A stretch of 64,000 nucleotides of DNA from assembly GCA_022402465.1 (NCBI GenBank), contig JAKRSH010000043.1, positions 62,001 through 126,000 on the forward strand. The letters run 5' to 3'. Position numbers and translations under genes: made by a program. The DNA comes from Leptospiraceae bacterium. GTDB lineage: Bacteria > Spirochaetota > Leptospiria > Leptospirales > Leptospiraceae. Positions 1,656 through 63,376 of the stretch are shown one piece after another; the first letter of the stretch is position 1, and each line of letters begins with the position of its first letter. Below the pieces are notes generated by a model. It was not told the origin of the DNA. It ran no database searches and was given only the letters and a program-made list of their open reading frames with translations.

Positions 1656-4001
1656 TCACCATGACTTGTTTCTTAAAAAAGCTAGCTGTTCCTTAGACTC
1701 AACAGCTCTTTGTGATCTATGCTCTCTAACTGTTGCTATAGCTTGCTCAGCTTGCAATTGAAATTTATCCATCAAATAGGCAGCGGCGACTGTACCAGAT
1801 CGTCCTAGTCCACCAACACAATGTAAGATGACAGAACCATCTCTGCTAAGTTCTTCATCAATAGCTTTTAGTAGATTAGGCAGTGTAGCCGAATCTGGAA
1901 TACCTTGGTCTAAGATAGGATAGGAAATAAGTTCTAAACCAGCATCTTTGTAGGCTTGTTTAAGTCCCTTCACGCCATATTCTGTATATTCCTGTTCAGT
2001 GATAAGACTGACTATAGCAGTAGCACCATCTTCTTTAAGACTGCTGATGTCTTTGTCCATATTGCGGCCTCTATCCATACGACCAGGTAAGATGGTTAAT
2101 CCCAGCCTTCCCTTATTATTAGGAATGGGGATATAGTCGACTCTCAATCTTTGAGATAGTCTTAGGTTGGATTGAATTTTTTTAGCAAGCAAACATCCCG
2201 TACGAAGTGCCCACTTTTTCTGGAGTTCACTGCATTCATCAAAGGATAAGGTATGCATAGCATAACGCAATAGCCCAACCTGCATTTGGTAAGGATCTCT
2301 ATCTAACTCTATAAGTTTAGGATAGAAGGATCGTAATTTACAAGCCGTTAAATAGGCACTTTGTATCTTGGTAGAATTAAATTCTGAGACTAAAGATGCA
2401 TCCATAGGAATTCCAAGATCCGATTGGTTGATCAAAAGCTCCGTTAGCTTGCATGCATCCCTCCAATCCGTTTCAACAATTTTAGTGAAGATATACAAAA
2501 GATCGTTTTCTAATTTCAGTAAGTCTTTGATGACATGCCCACGGTGGGTATGGAAAAAATCTATCAACCAAACATTATTTTGTGCATCTAAGATCATGTT
2601 CTTACCATTCAAATCTCCATGTATGTAAGAAACATAGTGAGAACTAGAGGAAAGTTCTTTAAGTTCGAGTAGATCCTTTTCGTAGAATAAACAAACATTG
2701 TAAAGCTCAAGCTTTGATTTAGAATCAATCCCTAATTCACTCTCAAGGAAAAATTCCCTCTCTTCCAGTGGTATCCCAACCAAGGCTTCTACTTTGGATC
2801 TTACAGACTTGGAATACTTAGCTTGAAAGTCATAATAATCTAGAAGATTGAGTTTCTCAAGATCCTTGGCGTCATAGAGCCTTCCTAATTGTTTGGTGAA
2901 GACTGTTTCAAGAATAGGGAAAATTCTCTCAAGTGATTCTCCACTTTCATATCTATCTTGGAAGACTTCGGTCTTACCATCTATCATTGCCGCATAACGA
3001 TATTTAATTCCTCCTCTTTCACCAAGCTCAGCAAAATCAACTATCCTTGGTGCATTATTACCTAAGACTTCTTCGATTCTCTCAAAAGATGTTCTCTCTT
3101 TGGCGATTAAATCTCTTGGTCCAATCTTGATTACAGTTGGCACCTGGTTATGACCTATGGAGTCTATACTTTTGGCACGAAGAACTACATTTCCTGAAAA
3201 ACCTCCATCCAAACATATAAACTCAACTGACTTACAATCTCTATACAAATAGTACAATATATCTTCATCTGAAGAGAGAAGCTTCATTTCTTGGTTGAAG
3301 CTCATAGCAACTCTATCCCTATTCTTAGTTCCACCTGGAAGCAGTTGAATTTTTTCTCCCGACAAGAATTCACTAAATCCTCCAATAGATGGAAAGATTT
3401 TGATACCCAGAATATTTTTTAAGTGATCCAGAGAAATAAAATGCATATGGCGAGATGAGCTTGCTGTTAATGCAGAACATATTCCAATTTCAAAATTTGG
3501 ATATCTTGTAGACAATTCATAACTCAAGAAGGAAATCTTAGCCTCGGTCCAAACTCCAACTAATCCAACTCGAATGCTTTCTTTAGATTTTTCATAGGAT
3601 TTTAATTTATCTTCTAAATCTGTTTTATGAAAATCATTCAAACCACTTGCATCAACAATATTATGTTTGGTGGATTTATCTTTTAAGAGTAAAGATTCAT
3701 ACACAAATTTGGCTCCATGGGAGCCAGCAATGCAATGAGCTCCAAACTGTTTCAAATGTTCTACTTGCTCTTCATCTTTTGGATTATGCCAGTCTCTAAT
3801 ATGAATGATATCTAAATCTTCCTTCCGCTCTAGTGCCCATTCCATAAATGCAATGACAGCACCCTCTGCTGGATTCTCGCCCATCAGTCGCTTAGATTCA
3901 GAATATCCAACATGAAGAAGATTCGGTATTGGATCATATTTCTGAATTGGTTCTACAAAATCATTTTGCAGACATTGGGTTATGAGTATTGCCTTCTTCA
4001 T
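1656..4001 (-). CDS. Three-domain fusion: isochorismatase-like, APH/TCAD9-like kinase and dual-specificity phosphatase
   Basis: Residues 1-210 have the isochorismatase/nicotinamidase fold: Asp14 sits in LQNDF, a Lys near 112 follows, but the nucleophile position in GVWTEAK is Lys155 rather than Cys, so this domain is probably not a hydrolase. Residues about 255-600 resemble APH-type small-molecule kinases: a Gly-rich loop (DGGFSGN), HGDLNGKN with His461 and Asp463, and IDFFH with Asp481. Residues 620-781 form a dual-specificity phosphatase with HCVGGLGRSG (His727, Cys728, Arg734). It is the last gene of an operon with NAD-kinase-like and SPFH genes, 5 bp after the former, with a good ribosome binding site (AAAGGTAG). 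A kinase and a phosphatase in one chain suggests reversible phosphorylation of a metabolite or nucleotide; the substrate is unknown. Confidence 0.85.
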   Translation of the reverse strand: MKKAILITQCLQNDFVEPIQKYDPIPNLLHVGYSESKRLMGENPAEGAVIAFMEWALERKEDLDIIHIRDWHNPKDEEQVEHLKQFGAHCIAGSHGAKFVYESLLLKDKSTKHNIVDASGLNDFHKTDLEDKLKSYEKSKESIRVGLVGVWTEAKISFLSYELSTRYPNFEIGICSALTASSSRHMHFISLDHLKNILGIKIFPSIGGFSEFLSGEKIQLLPGGTKNRDRVAMSFNQEMKLLSSDEDILYYLYRDCKSVEFICLDGGFSGNVVLRAKSIDSIGHNQVPTVIKIGPRDLIAKERTSFERIEEVLGNNAPRIVDFAELGERGGIKYRYAAMIDGKTEVFQDRYESGESLERIFPILETVFTKQLGRLYDAKDLEKLNLLDYYDFQAKYSKSVRSKVEALVGIPLEEREFFLESELGIDSKSKLELYNVCLFYEKDLLELKELSSSSHYVSYIHGDLNGKNMILDAQNNVWLIDFFHTHRGHVIKDLLKLENDLLYIFTKIVETDWRDACKLTELLINQSDLGIPMDASLVSEFNSTKIQSAYLTACKLRSFYPKLIELDRDPYQMQVGLLRYAMHTLSFDECSELQKKWALRTGCLLAKKIQSNLRLSQRLRVDYIPIPNNKGRLGLTILPGRMDRGRNMDKDISSLKEDGATAIVSLITEQEYTEYGVKGLKQAYKDAGLELISYPILDQGIPDSATLPNLLKAIDEELSRDGSVILHCVGGLGRSGTVAAAYLMDKFQLQAEQAIATVREHRSQRAVESKEQLAFLRNKSW

Positions 4002-4006
4002 AGTTT

Positions 4007-5050
4007 CTACCTTTTAGATTTTGTTTGAGTATTGTTTTCTTGGTTTTGCTTGGAAATAATTTTCTTCTTGGGTGATTTCACTTTGGAATCATTAGACTCA
4101 GAATTTTTATCAATAAAGGCTGAAACCAAATTTGTAGTCTTCTGTGCAAGTTGTATCTTAGCTGTAGTTCCTGATGAAAAATCTAAATAATCAGAATCCA
4201 TACCATCAGAAAAGATTATCCCGTTTTCAGGCATATGGGATTCTAAGATAAGCTCCATGCCTTCTTGTATGGTTCCTGCTACAAGACTTGCTCCTGACCA
4301 CTTGGATGCAAATGGCTCCCTGACTGCGAACAGAAGCATTCTCTCTTCCCAAGCAATATTTCTAAGAGTACATTTAACTTCGGATTTTGCATAGGCATTG
4401 ATCCCATTTGTCATATTAAAAACAGAACTAAACCAACCTGTAGATCCTGCAGGTGTTGATACAATGATTCCACTGGAAATTTGGCGTTCAGTTGCCTTAT
4501 TGAAATTTATCGTATAACGAGCAGAAGACTGTGTTCTTGGTCCTATAAAAAAGTCGTTGAAAGCAAGTAATGATTGGCTGTCTCCAAGCTTAACTTCTGC
4601 CATGGTGATCTTGTGATGAGAGAATTTTTCATTTAATACTTTCTCTAGCTTAATGCTTAGACTTTCCACTTGGAAGGGCATAAGAACTCCATCAAATCTT
4701 GCTGGATCGGGATTCACTGCAAAAATTGGTTGCCCATTCAGATACTTTGCTGTATTTACGACTAGTCCATCTTGTCCTAAGGTAAGAATCAAATCATTCG
4801 GTCCGAACATATAGTTCGGAAGATAGGAACGGTCTATCAAATGAAACTTGACACCAGGTTCAATAGCTTGGATAACTGCATCCTTGGCTCTTGAATAGTT
4901 ATCATATTCTAATTCATAATCTTCAAAAGACTGGCCTCTATTTGTTATATAAAACTTTGCCTGCCCCTTCGTATTGAACCTGCGAATTGTTTCTTCTAGA
5001 CGAGTCTGCCTGGTAACTATAACAATCTTATCAAACATAAGATGTCTCAT
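4007..5050 (-). CDS. NAD(+) kinase-like protein
   Basis: About 347 residues with the NAD/diacylglycerol kinase fold. Motif 1 is LTLGQDGL (residues 91-97), a variant of GGDGT with the second Gly replaced by Gln. Motif 2 is AFNDFFIGP (Asn166, Asp167), matching the NAD-kinase NE/ND motif, and motif 3 is STPAGSTGW (199-207), matching TPTGST. The C-terminal 35 residues are Lys/Ser-rich and probably disordered. The start could be TTG 5053, ATG 5050 or ATG 5038; 5050 is used. It lies between the SPFH gene (34-37 bp upstream) and the three-domain gene (5 bp downstream), so it may act with them on a nucleotide rather than being the housekeeping NAD kinase. No other NAD kinase gene is seen in the window. 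Confidence 0.8.
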   Translation of the reverse strand: MRHLMFDKIVIVTRQTRLEETIRRFNTKGQAKFYITNRGQSFEDYELEYDNYSRAKDAVIQAIEPGVKFHLIDRSYLPNYMFGPNDLILTLGQDGLVVNTAKYLNGQPIFAVNPDPARFDGVLMPFQVESLSIKLEKVLNEKFSHHKITMAEVKLGDSQSLLAFNDFFIGPRTQSSARYTINFNKATERQISSGIIVSTPAGSTGWFSSVFNMTNGINAYAKSEVKCTLRNIAWEERMLLFAVREPFASKWSGASLVAGTIQEGMELILESHMPENGIIFSDGMDSDYLDFSSGTTAKIQLAQKTTNLVSAFIDKNSESNDSKVKSPKKKIISKQNQENNTQTKSKR

Positions 5051-5086
5051 CAAAAAGAAAGAACATTGAATTCAACATGATAGGAA

Positions 5087-6220
5087 TTAAGATTCTCTTT
5101 GGTTCAGAATATTATTCTCATTTATAAAATTCGATTGACTCCCTAAAAGAGACTTAGAATTAACATCTATTAAAGATTGGAGCAAGTCTGGGCTAATATT
5201 TAGGTTACCTATCTTTTCAGAATTTTTTGCAAGGTCACGAAAGGCACGAGCTATCAGTTCTGAACTATTCATTTGGTTTAAGGAGAGAGCTTCTAGAATT
5301 TCAGCAGATAATTCTTTCAAGGGTGCAATTTCTTGGCTCAAGGATTGAGCCTTAGCCTTAGAATATTCTACCATGTTCTTAGCCTGAGAGCTAACAAGTT
5401 CAGACTTTTTCTTTTCTTGCTCAATCATAGAATCTAATTTCAGTTTTGCGATATCAGAATTTTTAGATTCGACAGCAAGCTTAGCATCCATCTTTGCAAT
5501 TTCGACTAGCTTTTGTTTTTCTTGAACAGAAATCTCTGCATTCATTTTCGTTTCGCGAATGGTTCGGTTTTTTTCTTCTACTGCGATTTGAGTCTGTAGT
5601 TCGTTTTCTTTGATCTTTCGCTCTTGTTCTACTGCAAAATTTCTTCTCTGAAATACAGCCTCATCCGATTGCTGTAAGAATACTTCCCTTGTTGTGGATT
5701 CTAAAGCTCTCGCCATTTCTGGTGCTGGTGAAATTTTCAAAATGCTAAAATCCAATACGTCAATACCAAGTTCAACTAAGGTTGTAGAATTCTTCAATCG
5801 ATCCAATACAGGTTGGTACAATTCTGCTGCCGCTGTCAAGGCTTCTGTGAGTTCTAAAGATCTAAATTTTTCTCGAACTGCGACTTGGATAAGATTTGTT
5901 ATGCGAAGGTTTAATTTTTCGATTCCATCTCCCACATATCTACCACTGGCATCAATAGTAAAATCAAGTAGAGAAGCAAGTTTAACAGCATCCTTGACCC
6001 TATAAGTGACCTGTCCTTGGATACTAATCTCTTGGTAGTCTTTGGTAATTTCCTGAAAGATAAAGGGAGCATCTCTAGTGTCTGCCGGAACTATCACCAA
6101 AGTAGATGAGGGTGCAAAATAAAAGAAACTAAGCCCAGCCCCTTGTTTCTTTATTCTACCAGATTTAAAATGAATGATAAAATCAATAGGACGGGTTTTT
6201 ATAAATCGAATTCCAAACAT
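5087..6220 (-). CDS. SPFH/band-7 (stomatin/flotillin-like) domain protein
   Basis: A 377-residue protein. Residues 20-190 match an SPFH domain (GQVTYRVKDAVKLASLL, then VREKFRSLEL and GIDVLDFSI). Residues 200-290 form a charged, Glu/Lys/Gln-rich coiled coil typical of flotillin-like scaffolds. There is no clear transmembrane helix, so it is probably a peripheral membrane or cytoplasmic oligomer. GGGAGTG precedes the ATG. It is the first gene of the three-gene operon with the NAD-kinase-like and three-domain genes. SPFH proteins build large ring assemblies and often accompany enzymes they recruit or enclose; that is the inferred role here. Confidence 0.85.
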   Translation of the reverse strand: MFGIRFIKTRPIDFIIHFKSGRIKKQGAGLSFFYFAPSSTLVIVPADTRDAPFIFQEITKDYQEISIQGQVTYRVKDAVKLASLLDFTIDASGRYVGDGIEKLNLRITNLIQVAVREKFRSLELTEALTAAAELYQPVLDRLKNSTTLVELGIDVLDFSILKISPAPEMARALESTTREVFLQQSDEAVFQRRNFAVEQERKIKENELQTQIAVEEKNRTIRETKMNAEISVQEKQKLVEIAKMDAKLAVESKNSDIAKLKLDSMIEQEKKKSELVSSQAKNMVEYSKAKAQSLSQEIAPLKELSAEILEALSLNQMNSSELIARAFRDLAKNSEKIGNLNISPDLLQSLIDVNSKSLLGSQSNFINENNILNQRES

Positions 6221-39408: not shown

Positions 39409-41004
39409 TTAGACATCCAGTCGCTTAACAGATGTTACCTCTTCTGATGTTGCTTTTAAATTTCCCCATTTAAGAGCAATTTTTGCTCCAGATTTCATAG
39501 CATCTTCTTTAATTGAATCTATTATCTCCATTGAAGTATGATCTATGTACTTAGCCTCTGACATATCTATGACGATGTTTTTATTTCCATTATCAATGGA
39601 TTTCTGGACGCTATCATACATCTTAAAAGAATTTAAGAATAATATGGGTGAGGAAATTTTCCAAATACCATTTTTCTCATCGCCGCTTATATTGAGAGTC
39701 CAGTAGTCTTTCCATTTTACACCAGAGATCAATTGAATGAGCATTTTTACTGCAACTCCAGCAAGAATTCCCACCAAAAGATCTATAAAAATTGTAAACA
39801 CTATAGTTGTAAGAAAAACTATGAGCTGTTCTTTTCCTGTCTTATAGTGCTTAATAAATTCTTTGGGTGCAGCTAATCTAAATCCAATTAATATTAGAAT
39901 TGCCGCAAGGGCTGACATAGGTATTAATTTGAGAATTGCTGGAAAGAGTAATAAAAATAATAAAAGAAAAGATCCATGGAAGAAATTTGACCAAACAGAT
40001 TTGGCTCCATTTTCAATATTTGCCTTAGAACGAACAATCTCAGCTATGATAGGTAGACCACCAATGAATCCTAAGAGCATATTCGCAAGTCCCTTACCTA
40101 TCAACTCCTGATCCATATTTGTTGATCTTCTTAATGGATCAATTTTGTCAACAGCAGATGCACTTAACAAAGATTCAAGACTTGCTATAAAATAAATCAT
40201 CAGAGTGTGAAACCAAAATACAAATGTTCCTACTGATGAAAAATCAGGAAAAATAATCGCTTCTTTCATTGAAGAAGGAATTTGAACTAAGTAATGTGTA
40301 TCAGCAAGATATTCTTTACCAAAGAAGTTGTATTTGGAAGATACATTAATATTGAAATATTCTACTAAAGCAACGCCAGCAATTACTGCAAGTAGAGGTG
40401 CTGGAATCTTATTCAAATAAGGAATCTTGATAAATTGAAAAAAAAGCAAAATCCCAATTGCAACCAATCCAATAAGAAAAATTTCAGGATTCAAATCCAA
40501 AATACGTGATGGAAATTCTAAATACAATTCCCAGGGTGCTTTTGCAATTGGACTAACTCCAATTAATACAAATAACTGTTTAGAAATAATTATCAGTCCA
40601 ATAGAAGCCATCATTCCATGAACTACAGAAGATGGAAAAATTTTCCCTAAGAATCCTTTTCGAAATACTCCTGTAAAGAACTGAAAAACCCCAACAATAA
40701 CCATGGCAGCAAGAGTTCTTTTGAATCCTAGCATACTATCTCCATGGCCAAGTCCTTCAATCGAATCGATAATAATTACTATGAGTCCAGCTGCTGGACC
40801 ATTGATGGTAACAAATGAACCACCAAATATAGAAGCTATGACTCCACCTACAATACCAGCTAACAAACCAGCTGTGGGAGGTGCTCCACTTGCAACTGAG
40901 ATCCCCACACAAAGTGGTAAAGCGATTAGAAAAACAACAAAGCCAGACAAAACGTCCGTTTTCGCATACTTCTTCCAATCTTTTTGAATACTTCGAAACT
41001 CCAT
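39409..41004 (-). CDS. SulP-family anion transporter with C-terminal STAS domain
   Basis: 531 residues: about 12 TM segments, with the SulP fold signatures VFLIALPLCVGISVASGAPPTAGLLAGIVGG (split here), KGLANMLLGFIGGLPIIAEIVRSKANIENGAKS, then a cytoplasmic STAS domain (about 440-531, VIDMSEAKYIDHTSMEIIDSI). SulP members carry sulfate, bicarbonate or other anions. It is the last gene of the 7-gene operon, starting 3 bp after the NuoB-like gene stops. The STAS sequence lacks an evident phosphorylatable Ser at the D-hydroxyl pair (it has DHTS). Coupling with the hydrogenase-like complex points to bicarbonate or other anion uptake, an inference. Confidence 0.93.
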   Translation of the reverse strand: MEFRSIQKDWKKYAKTDVLSGFVVFLIALPLCVGISVASGAPPTAGLLAGIVGGVIASIFGGSFVTINGPAAGLIVIIIDSIEGLGHGDSMLGFKRTLAAMVIVGVFQFFTGVFRKGFLGKIFPSSVVHGMMASIGLIIISKQLFVLIGVSPIAKAPWELYLEFPSRILDLNPEIFLIGLVAIGILLFFQFIKIPYLNKIPAPLLAVIAGVALVEYFNINVSSKYNFFGKEYLADTHYLVQIPSSMKEAIIFPDFSSVGTFVFWFHTLMIYFIASLESLLSASAVDKIDPLRRSTNMDQELIGKGLANMLLGFIGGLPIIAEIVRSKANIENGAKSVWSNFFHGSFLLLFLLLFPAILKLIPMSALAAILILIGFRLAAPKEFIKHYKTGKEQLIVFLTTIVFTIFIDLLVGILAGVAVKMLIQLISGVKWKDYWTLNISGDEKNGIWKISSPILFLNSFKMYDSVQKSIDNGNKNIVIDMSEAKYIDHTSMEIIDSIKEDAMKSGAKIALKWGNLKATSEEVTSVKRLDV

Positions 41005-41007
41005 AAT

Positions 41008-41832
41008 CTATGTTCCTTGCTTGAGAAACTCAAGCCACTTAACCTTAAAATCAAAATCTCGTCTCCCCATAAATGTCAGAAAGGCTCTAACCATGACATC
41101 TGGCCTAGGTGGGTCACCAGCTATCCAAAATTTGGGAGTATCAGGGAAAATTCCATGCTTCCATAAACCACCAGAAACAGCTTCGGTCCCCATTGCTATG
41201 ATAGCTCTGGGTTTTGCCATAGAGTCCCAAGCAACATTTAAGCCATGATGCATATTTTCTGATATAGGTCCTGAGACCAACAAAATATCAGCGTGTTTGG
41301 GAGAGGCAACAACACGAACACCAATACTTTCCATATCAAAAACATTATTAAAAGAAGCTCCAATCTCCCATTCAACGCCTGTATTAGAACCGGCACATAC
41401 CTCTCGAAAATTGAATCCGTTTTTATGGACTAGCTTATAAATAGTATCCTCCTTTAAGGTTCCTATAGCTTGTGGAAGATCTTTGCTTGATTCTAGGATA
41501 CCTGAAGAGTTATAATTTACTTTCAAATCATCTCTACTAGCTGAATAAACATCAACAAAGCCTGACTCAAATATTGAATTATTTTCACAAATATCTGAAC
41601 AAAGAGAACATTGCAAGCAGGCACCATAATCAAAACTTATCTTCTCAGATTGAACTTCTATGCAATGAGTTGGGCAAATTGCTTCACAGCTCTTACATTC
41701 AACACATATGGATATATCTCCTTTATAAGCAGGGATTCCTCTTGCCTTTGCTGAGAGACCATTGTGTTTACTTAAATCTAAGGTTACATGTGGTTTAAAA
41801 AGATTAAAAATCTCTTGGAGGAAACCTATCAT
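41008..41832 (-). CDS. Ferredoxin/NuoB-like fusion subunit of an NDH/hydrogenase-related complex (cluster cysteines lost)
   Basis: 274 residues. Residues 40-85 hold two intact ferredoxin [4Fe-4S] motifs: Cys43/46/49/53 and Cys72/75/78/82 (HyfH/NuoI-type). Residues 125-274 are NuoB/HyfI-like, but the usual GSCNGC is GSNTGV (Asn150, Val153), the third cysteine is Glu217 (MGTEAVSGG) and the fourth is Asp240 (GDPPRP). All four ligands of the proximal N2-type cluster are therefore missing. These two subunits are normally separate genes. Overlaps the upstream gene by 4 bp. Peripheral arm protein. Confidence 0.86.
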   Translation of the reverse strand: MIGFLQEIFNLFKPHVTLDLSKHNGLSAKARGIPAYKGDISICVECKSCEAICPTHCIEVQSEKISFDYGACLQCSLCSDICENNSIFESGFVDVYSASRDDLKVNYNSSGILESSKDLPQAIGTLKEDTIYKLVHKNGFNFREVCAGSNTGVEWEIGASFNNVFDMESIGVRVVASPKHADILLVSGPISENMHHGLNVAWDSMAKPRAIIAMGTEAVSGGLWKHGIFPDTPKFWIAGDPPRPDVMVRAFLTFMGRRDFDFKVKWLEFLKQGT

Positions 41833-43241
41833 AAGTCTACTCCTGCATATGAGTGATTGAAGGATTTATTTAATAAAGGAAAATCTCCTATCAACATTTC
41901 CCTAGCTGCAAGTTCTAGAGAATGCCAATTCAGTACAGAAGGATCGCGGTAGTAAATCTTATCGATTTGATTATCTACTCCCCATTTAAAAGCAACCAAA
42001 AGCCCACCTCGCCATGCTTCAGCAAGTCCATACGTGATTTCCTCATCTGATGCTTTCCTGGAATCTAAGTCATAAAGCTTCCATTTTGTCATTAAATCTG
42101 TCCATTCTATTTGATTGGATGCAGCCTGGATAATAGTTACGCATTTTTGAATATCATAATACCTTAATAAGAATCTGGACCAAGAATCTCCTATAAGTTT
42201 ATGATTTGTTGGATTCTGGAAAAAATTAGAATCTAATTCTTCATACAATGGTTCAGATTTTCTAATGTCAATTTTTGAAAGACTAGATCGTGCAGTATGT
42301 CCACTAAATCCATACTTCCAAGATTGATCGCTTGAAATGGTACCTACATTTTGCATACGTTCACGAAGAGTACTAGATGCGATTGCTCTTTCAATATGAA
42401 ACTTGAGATTCTTTAACCATGAATCAAATCTCTTTAAGTATTTTTGAATATCGTCTAGGCTTGTTTTAGAATTAAATCTAGATTGAAAAGGCATAAGAGC
42501 AAATCTACCAAAACGTGAGCCAGTTAATAATTCCATCCATCCTAAAGGAAAACCTCGTTCTGTTGAACAAACACCCAGCAATGGATAAAATCCAACATCT
42601 CCTGCTATCCCTCCTAAATCTCCTACATAAACGGCAAGTCGTTCCGTTTCTAGCAGAATTAATCTATACAGTTCTTCTGATTTTGAAATCTTTGAAGGGA
42701 ATTTTGATTCAATCGCTCGTGTTATAGCCAAGCTATTCGCTATGCTAGTATCTATTGTTGATGAAGAAAGCAAGTTAGCAATTTCAAAAACTGATTTACC
42801 CACACAAGCATTTAATATATTTCTTCTTTGAAATCCTAGTCGTATACTCAAGTGGCGAATTTCTTCTCCTCTAACAGAGAAGCGGAAGTGGCCAGGTTCT
42901 ATCACGCCAGCATGGATGGGACCTACTGCATGGGAATAATCTAGATTCGTTAATGGAACTTCTAATTTAGTATAATCGAATCCTCTTATACCCTTGGACG
43001 AATTATACAAATAGTTCAATTGATCCATTCTATGTGTTGAAAGATACCTCTCTTCAGATAGCAAGGAGTAATCTTCATCCCAAGTTAATCCAAAATTATA
43101 ACGTAGTAAGGAAATAGGAATACTTGGATCATTTAAATTTGCTTTGAAATCAGCATTGTTGACCTCAGAAATTATAGAGGAACCGGTATGGTAAAATTTT
43201 AAATTTTCAAATAGTCCAGTAACTACTTTTCTAGATTCCAT
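41829..43241 (-). CDS. NuoCD/HyfG-like large subunit without NiFe cysteines
   Basis: 470 residues. Starts with a NuoC-like segment, then AVGPIHAGVIEPGHFRFSVRGEEIRHLSIRLGFQRRN, the fold of group 4 hydrogenase/NuoD large subunits. Where hydrogenases have RICGIC, this protein has TIDTSI: Thr162 and Thr165 replace CxxC. The C-terminus (FNHSYAGVDL) lacks the second cysteine pair. It thus cannot hold a NiFe centre of the known kind. AGGAG precedes the ATG; overlaps neighbours by 11 and 4 bp. Belongs to the Ehr-like (energy-converting hydrogenase related) group. Confidence 0.86.
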   Translation of the reverse strand: MESRKVVTGLFENLKFYHTGSSIISEVNNADFKANLNDPSIPISLLRYNFGLTWDEDYSLLSEERYLSTHRMDQLNYLYNSSKGIRGFDYTKLEVPLTNLDYSHAVGPIHAGVIEPGHFRFSVRGEEIRHLSIRLGFQRRNILNACVGKSVFEIANLLSSSTIDTSIANSLAITRAIESKFPSKISKSEELYRLILLETERLAVYVGDLGGIAGDVGFYPLLGVCSTERGFPLGWMELLTGSRFGRFALMPFQSRFNSKTSLDDIQKYLKRFDSWLKNLKFHIERAIASSTLRERMQNVGTISSDQSWKYGFSGHTARSSLSKIDIRKSEPLYEELDSNFFQNPTNHKLIGDSWSRFLLRYYDIQKCVTIIQAASNQIEWTDLMTKWKLYDLDSRKASDEEITYGLAEAWRGGLLVAFKWGVDNQIDKIYYRDPSVLNWHSLELAAREMLIGDFPLLNKSFNHSYAGVDL

Positions 43242-44454
43242 AAAGTTCTCCTACTAGTTCTAAATTCATAATCCCATAAATGCCCCATCCTATGATTAAT
43301 AAGAACAATATGCTAACTATTGCTAACCTTCCATTGATTAATTTATATTCTGAATATTTAATTTGTTTAGAATCTTCAATAGCCCAGATATTATAAACTT
43401 TTGAGACAAGTAAAGAAAAGAAAATTAAGCTTAAGAATGGAATCAATAAGTTTAAGTACATTTTGCTCTGAATGGAAAGTTTAATAATTAGAAAATCAGT
43501 CAAAAATGCAGGTGAAACTGGAAAAGCAAATGCAAAGAATAGACTACCAAAATATAATATTTTTACTTTTTTATTGATTTCTGAAAGACGAAAAATTTGA
43601 TCTAAATATTTACTTCCTGATTCTATTCTAAGAATACCCATAGTTAAAAATACTAAAGTCTTCAGAAGAACTGTCCCCACCAAAATATAAAGAAAGATTG
43701 AAAATGGGATCTCCATCCAAATGATCCAGGCTAAGGCACCAGTATGGAAAAGTGCAATTTTAGCAGCTATTCGCCTAATATCATTTCTTTGGTAAAGCAT
43801 CCAGATTGAATGTAAGCATGTGGCTGAGCCTAAGACTGGCAACAATAGTCTTGCCGAGAATATAGATGGATTCCAAATTCTATCTATGGCAACTAATTCA
43901 CGTAATACTAAGGCAACTGTAACTGGAATCAAGGAAGCAATCAAGGAGGAGACTTGTGTTGGACTTTCTCCATAGGTATCACCAACCCAAAAATGATTGG
44001 GCCATAAACCCATCTTCGCTGTGTATCCATAGATTGCTAATGTTAAGCCCAAGTTAACAATAGGGCCTGTAGAGGATTGAACCTGCTTCAATGCATAAAT
44101 ATTCAAAGAACCATCTGAGCCGCCAGAGAAGGAAACCAGTATGAGTCCCAGGAAAGAAATTCCTAAACCATAGGAGTTGATTACAAGAAATTTCCACGCT
44201 ATCCTAGAAGATTTTACAGTACCTGAACTTGAGATCAATAAGGCTCCGAAGAGAGTTGAGGCTTCAATGAATACCCAAGATGCTGCAAAATTTTCAGTAA
44301 ACCATGATAAGGCTAAGCTCAAGAAAAATAGTGTAGTTGCTGTTAGCCAAATCCATCTTCTGGGCAATTTATGAGTTGGGAAGAAAATCCAAATAATCAT
44401 AACTGCAAAATAACTTATAAAACCAGAAATCAATAAGGGTAAAAATTCCATCAT
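43231..44454 (-). CDS. NuoN/HyfF-like antiporter-type membrane subunit
   Basis: 407 residues, about 11-12 TM helices. The antiporter core is recognisable: LAIYGYTAKMGLWPNHFWVGDTYGESPTQVSSLIASLIPV, with the TM7 Lys (TAK), but the second conserved Lys after the HXW loop is not in its usual place. Shorter than NuoN of complex I. Part of the proton/ion translocating membrane arm. Overlaps HyfE-like and HyfG-like genes by 4 and 11 bp. Confidence 0.82.
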   Translation of the reverse strand: MMEFLPLLISGFISYFAVMIIWIFFPTHKLPRRWIWLTATTLFFLSLALSWFTENFAASWVFIEASTLFGALLISSSGTVKSSRIAWKFLVINSYGLGISFLGLILVSFSGGSDGSLNIYALKQVQSSTGPIVNLGLTLAIYGYTAKMGLWPNHFWVGDTYGESPTQVSSLIASLIPVTVALVLRELVAIDRIWNPSIFSARLLLPVLGSATCLHSIWMLYQRNDIRRIAAKIALFHTGALAWIIWMEIPFSIFLYILVGTVLLKTLVFLTMGILRIESGSKYLDQIFRLSEINKKVKILYFGSLFFAFAFPVSPAFLTDFLIIKLSIQSKMYLNLLIPFLSLIFFSLLVSKVYNIWAIEDSKQIKYSEYKLINGRLAIVSILFLLIIGWGIYGIMNLELVGELYGI

Positions 44455-45056
44455 CCTTTCTCCTGTAAACTCAAAGGATTGAGTTTAAGCACAACGGCAG
44501 CAACAATCACAAGTACGGCGTCAAGAAAGGTTCCAAATTCTAAACCAATGGGAAGTCCTTTATCTAAAACCATCGTTAGAGCAAAGATCCCATTTTCAAA
44601 GACAACAAATCCAGCAATCAAAGCCATCCAGTTCTTCTGAACTATAAAACCTAAAATTCCAACATAGATTACTAAAATTACATAAATAAGTCCAATTCTA
44701 TGGGTATCTAAGGGGAAAGATTGTATTCTTTCAGTTAGAAATATTGCTATTAAGATACCAAATACAAGAAAAAAGGCAGTAGCAAGATACCCAAACCTAG
44801 GAGTTGTTGATTCTTCAAGCCAAGCTTTTCTAGCAGTCCAAAACAAAATGTACGGGGTCAGGACAGCCTTAAATAGGATAACCATAGAAATTAAAATCCA
44901 AGTATGGCTTTCATGGATGGGATGAACCTTAAGAACTGTAGGAATTAGTAGAAAACCTTGAAAGGATAGCAAGGATATAAGTCTGGTTAAGCGATTTTCT
45001 ACCAAGACCATTAAGCCCGAAAGAAATAACAAAAGATATGCAAAATCAAATATCAT
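44451..45056 (-). CDS. HyfE/NuoK-like membrane subunit
   Basis: 201 residues with six TM helices. The C-terminal half (AGFVVFENGIFALTMVLDKGLPIGLEFGTFLDAVLVIVAAVVL, not quoted in full here) matches the HyfE/hydrogenase-4 component E pattern of Glu residues in TM helices. Small ion-translocating subunit of the complex. Overlaps its neighbours by 4 and 11 bp. Confidence 0.8.
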   Translation of the reverse strand: MIFDFAYLLLFLSGLMVLVENRLTRLISLLSFQGFLLIPTVLKVHPIHESHTWILISMVILFKAVLTPYILFWTARKAWLEESTTPRFGYLATAFFLVFGILIAIFLTERIQSFPLDTHRIGLIYVILVIYVGILGFIVQKNWMALIAGFVVFENGIFALTMVLDKGLPIGLEFGTFLDAVLVIVAAVVLKLNPLSLQEKG

Positions 45057-45918
45057 GTAATTTTACCAAAGTCCCAAGAAATAAAATCACTAAGAAAATC
45101 AATCCCATAAGTTCAGGAACCCAGGACCACTTTCGCCTAGCACAAAAAGCTTCCCAAATTCCTAAGCCTACAGCTGATAAAAGAACTGCTGGTATAACCC
45201 AAAAAGGAATCCAAGAAGGACTCAAATAATCATTCTTATGAAATTTTGTATGCTCCAAACCAAGTTTTACTAAAAGTGTAAGCATGGTTGCGGATTTGAT
45301 TTGGTAAGATATTTCAAACATAGCAAATTTTCTTCCCGAGGCTTCAAGCAACATTGCTTCATGAACCATAGTAAGTTCGAGATGAGTTCTTGGATCATCA
45401 AAGGGTGGCTTTGAGAGTTCCACTAAGACAGCATAGAAACATGCCACTAAGAATAAGGCTCCCATAGAAAACGAAGTTATGGATGCATCCATTTGGATAT
45501 GAGATTGAGCGACGAGTATCATTAGAAGCAAAGTAGGTTCAGTAGATATGGAAAGTAAGGTTTCTCTTGAAGAACCCATTCCACCGAAGGAGGTTCCATT
45601 TTCAGAAGCGAAACCAGTTAAAGCTACTCTTTCCAAAACCAAAAAAAAGACTATAAATACAAAGGATGTCCATTCAAAGGCAACAATGGACCAAGCTATC
45701 AAACTTCCCATAATAGCAATCATTGGAGCATATTCTATAAAAAAGCCTGGTTGCGAAGAGACAACTGCTTGCTTCTGAAGATTACGATAAATATCTCTTA
45801 AGACCTGAGTAATAAAGGGACCTTTTCTATTTTGAGCTTTAGATCTTATCTTTCGAATGATCCCTCCAACTAAGAGAGGTAAGAGTATAAAGCCTATGAG
45901 TTGAAATATTTCTTTCAT
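45046..45918 (-). CDS. NuoH/HyfC-like membrane subunit
   Basis: 290 residues, about eight TM helices. Diagnostic segments: ENGTSFGGMGSSRETLLS and ELSKPPFDDPRTHLELTMVHEAMLLEASGR, the amphipathic loop and Glu-rich helix of NuoH/HyfC, which links the peripheral arm to the antiporter subunits. Acidic residues are kept. Gap of 1 bp to the HyfB-like gene, overlap of 11 bp with the HyfE-like gene. Confidence 0.85.
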   Translation of the reverse strand: MKEIFQLIGFILLPLLVGGIIRKIRSKAQNRKGPFITQVLRDIYRNLQKQAVVSSQPGFFIEYAPMIAIMGSLIAWSIVAFEWTSFVFIVFFLVLERVALTGFASENGTSFGGMGSSRETLLSISTEPTLLLMILVAQSHIQMDASITSFSMGALFLVACFYAVLVELSKPPFDDPRTHLELTMVHEAMLLEASGRKFAMFEISYQIKSATMLTLLVKLGLEHTKFHKNDYLSPSWIPFWVIPAVLLSAVGLGIWEAFCARRKWSWVPELMGLIFLVILFLGTLVKLHDI

Positions 45919-45919
45919 C

Positions 45920-47497
45920 TTAGTATCCTAGAACATCTTTAATGAAGAATAAAAACAAAATCACTAAAACTCCACCACTCGAAATCGCCAGATAATTACT
46001 TAGATCTTCTTCATCTAACATTTGCTTTACTTTATACCAAGAAGGATTCAGCATAGTATGAATCGTTTTATAAACAAAATTGTCTAATCGTGATTCACCA
46101 TTTGATTTTACTAGGTATCTACCCAATGAGTTTCGAACCGGTAAGGAATATGTCTCGGCGGTAACAGATGTTCTGGTAATATCTGCTTTTGATCCACAAT
46201 CCCAGGTGATTTCTTCAGACTTTTTCTTGGATGAAAATACTAAAATTAAAACAATAAAACCTAAGCTAACAAAAGATAATAAACCGGAATCCCTTAACCA
46301 AATTCCCATATTTCCAGGAAAATAATTAAACCATAAAAAAGGAAGAATCAATGAAGGTAAAATTATTCCTGCTCCCAACCAATATAAATCTAAGTTGTTT
46401 TTGCTTCTTTCTATAGCAGGCTTAAATTCCATCTCCCCTGTTCTAATGGTAGATAAGAAAACTGTATAAAATAATCGTAAATGAGAAACACCACCCGTCA
46501 CTAGGCCTGTAAATACTAAAACTAATACTGGTAATACGGCTATTGAACGACCTGTAGGAATATCCAAGACCTGACTGCTTAGCAATAGATACATACTTTC
46601 AGATAAAAAACCAGAAGTTCCTGGGATTGCCATAAAGCTCATTGTTCCTATACCAGCAAGTGCAGTGGGTATACCGAGCAATCTACCCATACCACGAATA
46701 TTATTTAAATTATTAAGATAGGGTGATTTCCATATTCGACCTAAAAGTGAAAATTGAAAGACCTTAGAAATAGAATGTTGAACCAAACCAAAATAAAATA
46801 ATATTATAAATGGTTTCTCTAACACTTGAAAGCTCGCATCTGTGGTAGTCTTCGCTATTCCTCCAAGAGCAATGCACAACCATAGAAAATTGAGCTTCTC
46901 TATAGAGCTGTATGCAAGCAAAAGCGAAACCTTAGATTGAAAGTAGCTACTAACTCCACCTACAAAAACTCCTATACTTGCGATCGAGGCTAGTACCAAG
47001 AAAAAAATAGGCTCATTCCAAAGAGGGTAAACAAATTCCATAAAAAGGAAAAACGGAAAAATTGCCATAACGCCTGATGAGAAGGAATTGATTTCGGCAG
47101 TCCCATTCTCATAGGCGCTAGGCATCCAAAAGTGGAAGAGAAGAAGAGATGATTTAATGAAAACAGCAATAGATAGAAAATAAGTTCCAATAATTGAATG
47201 ATTAGGTAGGAAAATCCAAACAGATAAGAAAATAGCAGAAATACTTCCACTCACAATAAAAGACGAGATGCTTTTTCCTTGGTCTTTATGATCTCTAGGA
47301 TATAAAAAGAAATATATATAGCTTAGAGACTCTAAACTAATAACTGTTAGAAAATTCTTCTTAGTGTAAAAAGAGAAAAGTAAGAGTAGACATTGAAGTG
47401 CTATTAAGAAACGAGAATATTTACCCGATTGCTTGGCGAGTAAGAGACCAATGGTTACTATAATGCATAAAGCTAAATAGAGAATTGTTTCGTTCAA
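45920..47497 (-). CDS. NuoL/HyfB-like antiporter-type membrane subunit
   Basis: 525 residues with about 14 TM helices. The core SLLLFHFWMPSAYENGTAEINSFSSGVMAIFPFFLFMEF matches the HXWLP region of NuoL/M; Lys in VFIKSSLLLFHFW is kept, but the usual GVMIK Lys is GVMAI. A late segment (SEEITWDCGSK) is common in HyfB-like proteins. Start is TTG at 47497 with GGAAG upstream. First large gene of the operon, 40 bp after the small secreted ORF. Confidence 0.85.
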   Translation of the reverse strand: MNETILYLALCIIVTIGLLLAKQSGKYSRFLIALQCLLLLFSFYTKKNFLTVISLESLSYIYFFLYPRDHKDQGKSISSFIVSGSISAIFLSVWIFLPNHSIIGTYFLSIAVFIKSSLLLFHFWMPSAYENGTAEINSFSSGVMAIFPFFLFMEFVYPLWNEPIFFLVLASIASIGVFVGGVSSYFQSKVSLLLAYSSIEKLNFLWLCIALGGIAKTTTDASFQVLEKPFIILFYFGLVQHSISKVFQFSLLGRIWKSPYLNNLNNIRGMGRLLGIPTALAGIGTMSFMAIPGTSGFLSESMYLLLSSQVLDIPTGRSIAVLPVLVLVFTGLVTGGVSHLRLFYTVFLSTIRTGEMEFKPAIERSKNNLDLYWLGAGIILPSLILPFLWFNYFPGNMGIWLRDSGLLSFVSLGFIVLILVFSSKKKSEEITWDCGSKADITRTSVTAETYSLPVRNSLGRYLVKSNGESRLDNFVYKTIHTMLNPSWYKVKQMLDEEDLSNYLAISSGGVLVILFLFFIKDVLGY

Positions 47498-47537: not shown

Positions 47538-47858
47538 TTAAGAAATAGTAGGTGGGGGCTGAGAAAGATAATTAGGAATAGAATGAGAGAATGGAGATGG
47601 ATTAAATCGAATTGAGTCAGATAGCTTTAATAAAGATAAAGGAAAATGGGAAGAGGATTTGCCTTCAAAAAATTTCTCAAGATCTTCAATTTCATTGAGA
47701 GGCTGTTCTTCAAAGCTAGTAAGCCTTTCACTTGCATCAATTTTCTCTGAGTATTGGGATTGAAATTCAAAAGATGAATTTGGAATAATGGGCAAAGCTA
47801 TAGAAAATAACAAAACAAGCGATAATGCTTTAATTCTATTATTTATTTTGAATACCAT
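47538..47858 (-). CDS. Small secreted/anchored protein at the head of the hydrogenase-like operon
   Basis: 106 residues: hydrophobic N-terminal helix (ALSLVLLFSIALPIIP), then a charged, Pro-rich tail with EIEDLEKFFEGK. No recognised domain. It begins with ATG at 47858, about 2-3 bases after the predicted transcription start, and ends 40 bp before the NuoL/HyfB-like gene. It could be an accessory subunit or a translation-coupled leader; function unknown. Confidence 0.55.
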   Translation of the reverse strand: MVFKINNRIKALSLVLLFSIALPIIPNSSFEFQSQYSEKIDASERLTSFEEQPLNEIEDLEKFFEGKSSSHFPLSLLKLSDSIRFNPSPFSHSIPNYLSQPPPTIS

Positions 47859-61549: not shown

Positions 61550-63376
61550 ATGATTGCTAAGTTAAGAATCTTTTTTTTACTTTCTATTCCCTTCCTTTCT
61601 GCGGCATGGATTACACTTTCTAGCGCAAATCTTGAATTTGAATCTGAGAACCTTGATAAAATATATGATAAATATACCCTATCGAAGCTTGAATCTACAA
61701 ATGATTCCAATCTTCTTCGAAGACTCTCTCTTTATCTAAGGGGAACCATACCCGATGGCAAGGAGTCCTTAGAATTTGCGAAAAACACTGATTCCGATAA
61801 GCTTCGTTTAACTAGCATTCAATATTTACAAAGTCCAGAATTTGCAGAATACTGGGCTACCAAACTAGGCTCCTTATTTCGTGAACAGACGAATAGAAGA
61901 GATGAAGTCTATGGTGGATTTTTCAAATACCTTGCAAATTCACTCCATGAAGACAAACCGTACGATGTTTTGGTTAGAGAAATGATTACCGCAGAAGGCG
62001 ATCTTGAGAAAAATCCAGCAGGCCATTTCTATGCTAGAGATTCTGCTGACCCCTTACAAGTTGCTGAGTATGTTGGTCGTGTATTCTATGCAAAGCGTGT
62101 AGGATGTGCTAGGTGCCACGATGATAAATTTGATAAATCGTTTACTCAAAGAGATTACTATGCAATTGCAGCTTTCTTCAGCCAACAGTTCTACCGCACA
62201 GGTTGGTGGGATGAGAAAAGATTCCAAGGGGAAGCTATACCCAACATCCCCAATGAAGATATAGAAAATCTCCCTCTGAAAGAACAGAAAATCGTTAAGG
62301 ATAGAAATAGAGAATGGGATCAAGCATATTGGAACAAAATGTCCAAAGAAGAAAGAGAAAAACATAAAAATAAACATTTATTGAAATTTGGGAAGTTATA
62401 TTATGAAGAAAAATTAGGGATTCGCTTTCCAATAAAAGATGATAAACCCGGAGGAGATTTAGTCCAAGCTAAATTTCCAGATGGAACAATTCCAGAAATT
62501 AAAGAGGGGTCTGATCGAAGGAAAATCTTTGTAGATTGGTTAGTTGCAAAAGAAAATCCCAGATTTAGGAAAGTTATTATCAATCGTATCTGGAGAGAGC
62601 TTATGGGTTGGGCGTTTTTCACTCCAGAAGATGATTGGAACAAAGATACCCTTATCCAAGCAGAAGATGTCTTGAATCACTTAGACCAAGTCTTCTTAGA
62701 AAAAAATCATTCTATCAAAGAACTAATTTTCTATATCGTTAATTCCCAAGCTTATGCAAGACGAACACCAGCAAATGAAGAAGAGAAATCAAACCGAATC
62801 CAATTTTTTCCATCTAGACGTATGGATCCGGACCAGTTGATGAATTCTATTGTAAAAGGAACTCTAGAAGTTGACCAACCAAAATGGTTGTTCAGCGAAC
62901 GAAGATTAACTCAATTTTTTCCAAAAAAAGTTAATTTCAAAGGAAAGGGAGATCTCAAGATTCCTGATAAAGATCAAAAAGATATTAAATTTGCATCTCA
63001 AATGGAAAGACCAGCAAGACCGAACCAATTTTTAGCGATCTTTGGTTCAGGCAATAGAACCGATGTTGAAGATGACCATACTGAAATAACAATAGACCAA
63101 GTCTTAACTCTTATGAATGGAAGATTAACTGGAAAGGCAGCCTGGGACTTTGGTGGAAAAGATTCTCAAAGTGTAAAAACATTTGAGGCAACAAAATCTA
63201 TGAGTTCCGTTGTTAATGATCCCTTTCTAATTCTTTTAGGTAGGGACATGACGGGAAAAGAAAAAGAATTATTAATCTCAAATCTCCCCAAAGGAGACGG
63301 ACACTTTGAACGCCAAATTCTTCAAGATTTTGTTTGGGCAATTATGAATAGCCAGGAGTTCCTTCATGTCAACTAA
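61550..63376 (+). CDS. DUF1549-domain protein (partner of DUF1501 protein)
   Basis: 608 residues. Signal-like N-terminus (IFFLLSIPFLSAAWI). DUF1549 features: RLSLYLRGTIPD, a haem-like CARCH (VGCARCHDDKFD) and RDYYAIAAFFSQQF, then DUF1553-like FRKVIINRIWRELMGWAFF. These proteins are abundant in Planctomycetes. The next gene (DUF1501) overlaps by 11 bp, the standard pair. Function unknown; the CARCH motif may bind haem. Confidence 0.85.
   Translation: MIAKLRIFFLLSIPFLSAAWITLSSANLEFESENLDKIYDKYTLSKLESTNDSNLLRRLSLYLRGTIPDGKESLEFAKNTDSDKLRLTSIQYLQSPEFAEYWATKLGSLFREQTNRRDEVYGGFFKYLANSLHEDKPYDVLVREMITAEGDLEKNPAGHFYARDSADPLQVAEYVGRVFYAKRVGCARCHDDKFDKSFTQRDYYAIAAFFSQQFYRTGWWDEKRFQGEAIPNIPNEDIENLPLKEQKIVKDRNREWDQAYWNKMSKEEREKHKNKHLLKFGKLYYEEKLGIRFPIKDDKPGGDLVQAKFPDGTIPEIKEGSDRRKIFVDWLVAKENPRFRKVIINRIWRELMGWAFFTPEDDWNKDTLIQAEDVLNHLDQVFLEKNHSIKELIFYIVNSQAYARRTPANEEEKSNRIQFFPSRRMDPDQLMNSIVKGTLEVDQPKWLFSERRLTQFFPKKVNFKGKGDLKIPDKDQKDIKFASQMERPARPNQFLAIFGSGNRTDVEDDHTEITIDQVLTLMNGRLTGKAAWDFGGKDSQSVKTFEATKSMSSVVNDPFLILLGRDMTGKEKELLISNLPKGDGHFERQILQDFVWAIMNSQEFLHVN

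Follow-up and report, generated by a model that had tools for sequence, protein, structure and literature searches.

The window, a 64,000-nucleotide stretch of Leptospiraceae DNA, encodes a complex that is an Ehr-type variant without the proximal-cluster ligands of the Ehr family. This loss is a trait of a whole family of complexes with a parallel in a second clade, which makes the finding stronger than first stated in a sequence-only reading of the same DNA. Most of the functional information is carried by three features missing from that reading, namely a SulP gene, intact channel residues and the second N2-less clade.

On the minus strand, seven close-packed genes run from 47497 to 39409, from the HyfB-like gene through SulP, with gaps of +1, -11, -4, -11, -4 and +3 bases between successive genes. 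A small ORF just upstream is listed with them.

47538..47858, minus strand: small ORF, 106 aa, possible eighth member, just upstream of the HyfB-like gene
45920..47497, minus strand: HyfB/NuoL-like antiporter-like subunit, 525 aa, N-terminus shortened (PF00361, E = 9.6e-15, and hydrogenase-4 subunit B)
45046..45918, minus strand: HycD/NuoH-like subunit (PF00146, E = 9.6e-22; 7z0s_D, E = 4e-13)
44451..45056, minus strand: HyfE-like (NuoK-type) membrane subunit (NCBIfam hydrogenase 4 membrane subunit, E = 4.5e-12)
43231..44454, minus strand: HyfF-like antiporter-like subunit, 407 aa, N-terminus shortened (PF00361, E = 1.8e-15; hydrogenase 4 subunit F, E = 8e-26)
41829..43241, minus strand: NuoD/HycE-like large subunit (PF00346, E = 1.5e-20; MbhL/HycE matches; HycE and NuoD-type chains in Foldseek)
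41008..41832, minus strand: FdNuoB, a 2x[4Fe-4S] ferredoxin (NuoI-like) fused to a NuoB-like domain
39409..41004, minus strand: SulP-family anion transporter with STAS domain (PF00916, E = 4.8e-60; STAS, E = 2.6e-7)

The ORFs of FdNuoB and the large subunit were intact, with the same coordinates as in the sequence-only reading, and the GC content of the operon was 35% versus 36% for the window. The top solved relative of the HyfB-like subunit was 7z0s_C (formate hydrogenlyase subunit 3), and alignment revealed the motifs GTSFGGMGSSRE...EP and PPFDDPRTHLELTMVHEAML to be conserved in the HycD/NuoH-like subunit. A canonical NuoB is also present in the own genome, on contig C15, which implies that the operon is not the respiratory complex I of this genome. 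The 106-aa ORF, for which no Pfam match was obtained, has a hydrophobic N-terminus and a C-terminal PPP motif (LSQPPP in the own genome; 'SIPPP'-type ending); counterparts alike in position and motif were found in three relatives (L040, L035, L037), that is, in at least four family loci including the own one, and it may encode an eighth subunit or a secreted factor.

Antiporter-like and NuoH-like subunits were found in the same operon as a large subunit without NiFe ligands, as is expected of an Ehr complex. The window complex resembles Ehr complexes in its subunit set, in the fused Fd-NuoB found phylum-wide and in the absence of NiFe ligands from the large subunit, which is a known Ehr character (PMC6349859), but Ehr relatives keep the four proximal cysteines, while the window family has none and adjoins bicarbonate-type transporters. 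For the HycC-, HycD- and HycG-like subunits, the best solved templates came from formate hydrogenlyase and hydrogenase-4 (HycB-G, HyfA-I; PDB 7z0s), which also ranked among the best for HycE; unlike these, the window complex has no NiFe site, proximal cluster or formate dehydrogenase gene, and its antiporter-like subunits are shortened.

At the position of the first CxxC pair, the large subunit reads SSSTIDTSIAN, with T162 and T165 instead of cysteine, and its C-terminus reads NHSYAGVDL and holds no CxxC pair; the RxCGxC and C-terminal DPCxxC ligands of group 4 [NiFe] hydrogenases are absent. The motif columns thereby bore out the sequence-only reading, which had noted TIDTSI (Thr162, Thr165) for RICGIC and a missing C-terminal pair. 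That NiFe loss is known in Ehr complexes was likewise confirmed, with CxxC present in 0 of 30 tabulated relatives and the loss on record (PMC6349859). D164 of the large subunit was invariant across all Ehr rows. The predicted model of this subunit (pLDDT 61, pTM 0.71) confirmed the NuoD/HycE fold only, as judged by Foldseek.

In FdNuoB, comparison with the HycG chain 7z0s_G and with N2-retaining relatives revealed the proximal-site columns to be occupied by N150, V153, E217 and D240, in agreement with the earlier claim that all four proximal cysteines are gone (GSCNGC to GSNTGV, Glu217, Asp240). GSNTGV and CNGC can also be matched with a shift of one residue, and the column alignment with relatives fixes Cys1 as N150 and Cys2 as V153. 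Absent are both the Cluster N2 ligands of respiratory complex I and the proximal [4Fe-4S] ligands that all other Ehr rows except one clade keep. N150, E217 and D240 were common to all seven complete family copies, which are 45-50% identical to the window protein, and 20 of 20 N2-retaining relatives carry four cysteines at the same columns as N150/V153/E217/D240; the replacement of the cysteines is therefore not due to chance. The columns were cysteine-free in all family relatives, the pattern proposed beforehand as the mark of a distinct clade, and the window family accordingly forms one. Substitute ligands at the same positions, which had been named as evidence against the loss, were half present, with conserved N, E and D on three of the four ligand columns; these residues could bind a metal in a non-FeS site or act as a polar plug.

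All eight ferredoxin cysteines of the window FdNuoB (43, 46, 49, 53 and 72, 75, 78, 82) are present, as the sequence-only reading had it, and they were invariant across the seven complete family copies. Its further statement that the electron path is broken or new stood in its first part, for the stretch beyond the ferredoxin clusters and as far as the sequence tells, while nothing pointed to a new path. The invariant cysteines are hard to explain without a role, and one could propose that electrons enter the two ferredoxin clusters and exit to an unknown acceptor, or that oxygen and nitrogen ligands still hold a cluster at the proximal site. We consider such redox work by a new route improbable. 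To our knowledge, there is no precedent for a [4Fe-4S] cluster held without any cysteine, the operon contains no flavin, haem or extra redox gene, and the second N2-less clade has dropped its outer ferredoxin cluster too. Moreover, with N2 missing, the gap between the last ferredoxin cluster and the cavity is wider than the normal tunnelling range in known structures.

The complex was found in all eight family genomes (the own genome, G000, and G001-G007), those with named records being Leptospiraceae or Leptospirales MAGs; the copy in G004 is cut by the contig end. The fused Fd-NuoB is common in the wider phylum, and of the 24 rows from outside the family, 20 retain the four proximal cysteines. 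The view that losing N2 is more extreme than losing NiFe is thus upheld, NiFe loss being general in the surrounding Ehr group and N2 loss unusual. The literature searched yielded neither an account of an N2-less Ehr complex nor one of Ehr genes together with SulP/SbtA, which is weak evidence as key Ehr papers in subscription journals were not covered.

The second N2-less clade is family f23, represented by four loci (L076-L079), with D, A, D and N at the four columns (the last column is not covered in L079). Also missing from these loci are the cysteines matching 43, 46, 49 and 82, and with them the outer ferredoxin cluster, while those matching 53, 72, 75 and 78 are kept; this assignment to outer and inner cluster follows the known dicluster ferredoxin pattern. 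In each of the two N2-less clades, acids occupy two of the columns Cys1, Cys3 and Cys4 and an amide the third, and the Cys2 column is taken by a small or hydrophobic residue, a set that could represent a metal site, a hydrogen-bonded plug or simple cavity filling. The trees separated the two clades, with f23 adjoining an N2-retaining family (93/86; two-protein tree, motif columns removed). The best trees imply two losses of N2; a single loss was not rejected (AU p = 0.053 for the large subunit and 0.21 for the two proteins with motif columns removed). N2 was probably lost in the second clade separately from the Leptospiraceae loss.

Two further variants were observed. In L058, L071, L081 and L082, N2 and the inner ferredoxin cluster are kept and the outer one is lost (columns 43, 46, 49 and 82), which is another kind of electron-wire decay. 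L034:6314-8075 (G007:C427) holds a second, convergent copy of the complex with a large subunit and a HyfF-like subunit, cut by the contig end; no FdNuoB gene follows it, and the G007 genome gave one FdNuoB match only. This second copy may do without a NuoB subunit altogether.

In the membrane arm, E55 (TM5-type), K115 (TM7-type), K245 and E301 (TM12-type) of the HyfB-like subunit were kept in 12 of 12 aligned rows, as were E64, K147 and K265 of the HyfF-like subunit, with an acid at the position of D317 in 11 of 12. Such acid and lysine residues are thought to carry protons in NuoL/M/N. The NuoH-like subunit has retained its conserved acidic loops. Both antiporter-like subunits are shorter at the N-terminus than HycC/HyfF, and the family does not retain the TM8-type lysine, the latter being a point against ion translocation. 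With the channel residues kept and the N2 and NiFe ligands gone, the complex looks fit to move ions but not to pass electrons to its core.

The gene directly after FdNuoB encodes SulP in the own genome (where 3 bp separate it from the FdNuoB stop codon) and in G001, G002, G005 and G006, and SbtA in G003 and G007. The only SulP gene found in the own genome is the one adjoining the operon. No SulP gene was found in the whole G003 genome, where SbtA thus appears to replace it, and in G007 and G002 SulP and SbtA both lie within a few kilobases. SbtA was assigned by homology in three loci (Pfam Sbt_1, E down to 1e-121; solved SbtA, E = 3e-23), followed by an SbtB-like PII gene in two (L034, L037); the PII-like protein of L037 matches solved SbtB with E = 1.8e-7. 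Gene count alone puts the chance of SulP adjoining the operon at roughly 1 in a few thousand for each genome, with the reservation that the genera are related and the events not fully independent. SulP and SbtA were absent from ten stretches around N2-retaining, second-clade or hydrogenase-type complexes, a result in favour of the bicarbonate reading; their absence beside the second N2-less clade is a point against a bicarbonate function.

If HCO3- were not what SulP and SbtA have in common, the exchange of one for the other at a single site would be difficult to account for. The scores of the own SulP with BicA did not exceed those with DauA or generic SulP models, and Asp258, the Na+ ligand of BicA, corresponds to Glu277 (BicA site from PMC13249358). 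Both results are points against the bicarbonate reading, in which SulP is a candidate bicarbonate transporter. A link of the complex to sulfate or organic-anion transport would be compatible with SulP models that do not resolve the substrate, but other genomes have SbtA with an SbtB-like PII at this place, and the two transporters share no known substrate except bicarbonate, which makes such a link hardly probable.

RuBisCO was not found in any of the eight family genomes, and an autotrophic CCM, or autotrophy in general, was ruled out on this basis; any need served would be that of heterotrophs for inorganic carbon. Heterotrophs are known to obtain dissolved inorganic carbon by means of carbonic anhydrase or MpsAB (PMC8567241). 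A full-length DabA is encoded in the own genome outside the window (G000:C35:3899-6319) and was absent from the seven other family genomes searched, while a beta-carbonic anhydrase is present in six relatives and not in the own genome. No clear mutual exclusion of the complex with DabA or beta-carbonic anhydrase was seen, given that DabA and the complex occur together in the own genome and the complex and beta-carbonic anhydrase in six relatives. As most family genomes have beta-carbonic anhydrase and the own genome DabA, the need for a bicarbonate complex is not obvious. DabA in the own genome alone, together with the long branch of the own large subunit (1.9 changes per column), might indicate a relic under relaxed selection that is being lost in this lineage. 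This is very unlikely, since the seven genes are intact and overlapping in the own genome and in relatives at 30-55% identity, the channel and substituted-site residues are still invariant and none of the family genomes is without the complex.

What we infer from sequence for the function, and give about an even chance of being correct, is an Ehr complex that no longer takes part in electron transfer and has been retained for ion translocation in the service of bicarbonate uptake. Driven by the membrane gradient, the membrane arm would exchange H+ for Na+, or conduct H+, in an Mrp-like manner, and the neighbouring SulP/SbtA would import HCO3- driven by the Na+ gradient or local change of pH so produced, supplying a heterotroph with bicarbonate. 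The coupling would most likely be Na+/H+ exchange powering Na+/HCO3- symport. Precedents are the proposals that Na+/H+ antiporters located beside BicA-like SulP genes (PMC8115632) and Mrp/NhaS systems sustaining SbtA/BicA (PMC13249358) act in this way, and DAB2, where complex-I-type (NuoL-like) channel subunits drive carbon uptake without electron transfer (PMC13144422). Like Mrp, the window complex would exchange ions through NuoL/N-type subunits with no redox chemistry and thereby support Na+/HCO3- symport; unlike Mrp, it keeps a peripheral arm and the HycD/NuoH subunit, and the small subunits MrpB, C, E, F and G are absent. The role of two ferredoxin clusters without an electron exit is the main unexplained point of this ion-exchange reading: were ion exchange all, the peripheral arm and the eight invariant ferredoxin cysteines should not be so well kept. 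Our guess is that the retained ferredoxin domain is structural, or a redox or iron sensor.

The main rival to ion exchange is DAB-like CO2 hydration, in which the former N2/active-site cavity (N150, E217 and D240, possibly with Zn or another metal) would use proton flow for PMF-driven vectorial hydration as an independent analogue of DabAB or NDH-1MS. The window complex shares with DabAB/MpsAB and cyanobacterial NDH-1MS complex-I-type channel subunits for dissolved inorganic carbon (PMC13144422, PMC8567241, PMC6981117), and differs from them in having no DabA (PF10070) or CupA Zn carbonic anhydrase in the operon and in retaining NuoB/NuoD-type subunits. In its favour are the same genomic link to bicarbonate transporters, the example of DAB2, whose NuoL-like subunits can drive the hydration of CO2 with no need of electrons (PMC13144422), the coupling of a complex I to this reaction in NDH-1MS (PMC6981117), and the recurrence of two acids and one amide at the site in both clades. 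Nevertheless, we regard CO2 hydration as unlikely, since the site shows no newly conserved His or Cys, an all-oxygen site matches no known carbonic anhydrase, neither a CupA nor a DabA domain was detected among the operon proteins, and the AlphaFold2 model of FdNuoB, built from six rows, is poor (pLDDT 34) and lends the site geometry no support.

A more far-reaching reading, which we hold to be unlikely, is that the electron-wire site was rebuilt as a non-FeS acid/amide (perhaps metal) site and that the ion gradient alone accumulates bicarbonate. The complex would then be the third independent coupling of complex-I channels to inorganic carbon after DAB and NDH-1MS, with a whole peripheral arm turned from redox to non-redox use at least twice.

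An open question about complex I is by what means the redox chemistry of its arm powers the movement of ions in the membrane. A family that keeps arm and membrane part but not N2 and the active site offers a natural test of which arm features are needed for ion transport alone. The operon may also represent an inorganic-carbon supply system that has gone unrecognised in heterotrophic spirochaetes, and this link to bicarbonate is the most useful addition to the sequence-only reading. The finding also corrects the hydrogenase or formate hydrogenlyase annotation of operons of this kind.

Elsewhere in the window, the minus-strand gene at 1656-4001 encodes a 781-aa protein in which nicotinamidase-like, kinase-like and dual-specificity-phosphatase-like (HCVGGLGRSG) parts seem, by eye, to be joined in a single chain; next to it, at 4007-5053 and 5087-6220, lie an NAD-kinase-like and a band-7-like gene. 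On the plus strand, 61550-63376 encodes a 608-aa protein with a CxxCH motif that appears DUF1549/DUF1553-like by eye, a type known mainly from Planctomycetes.
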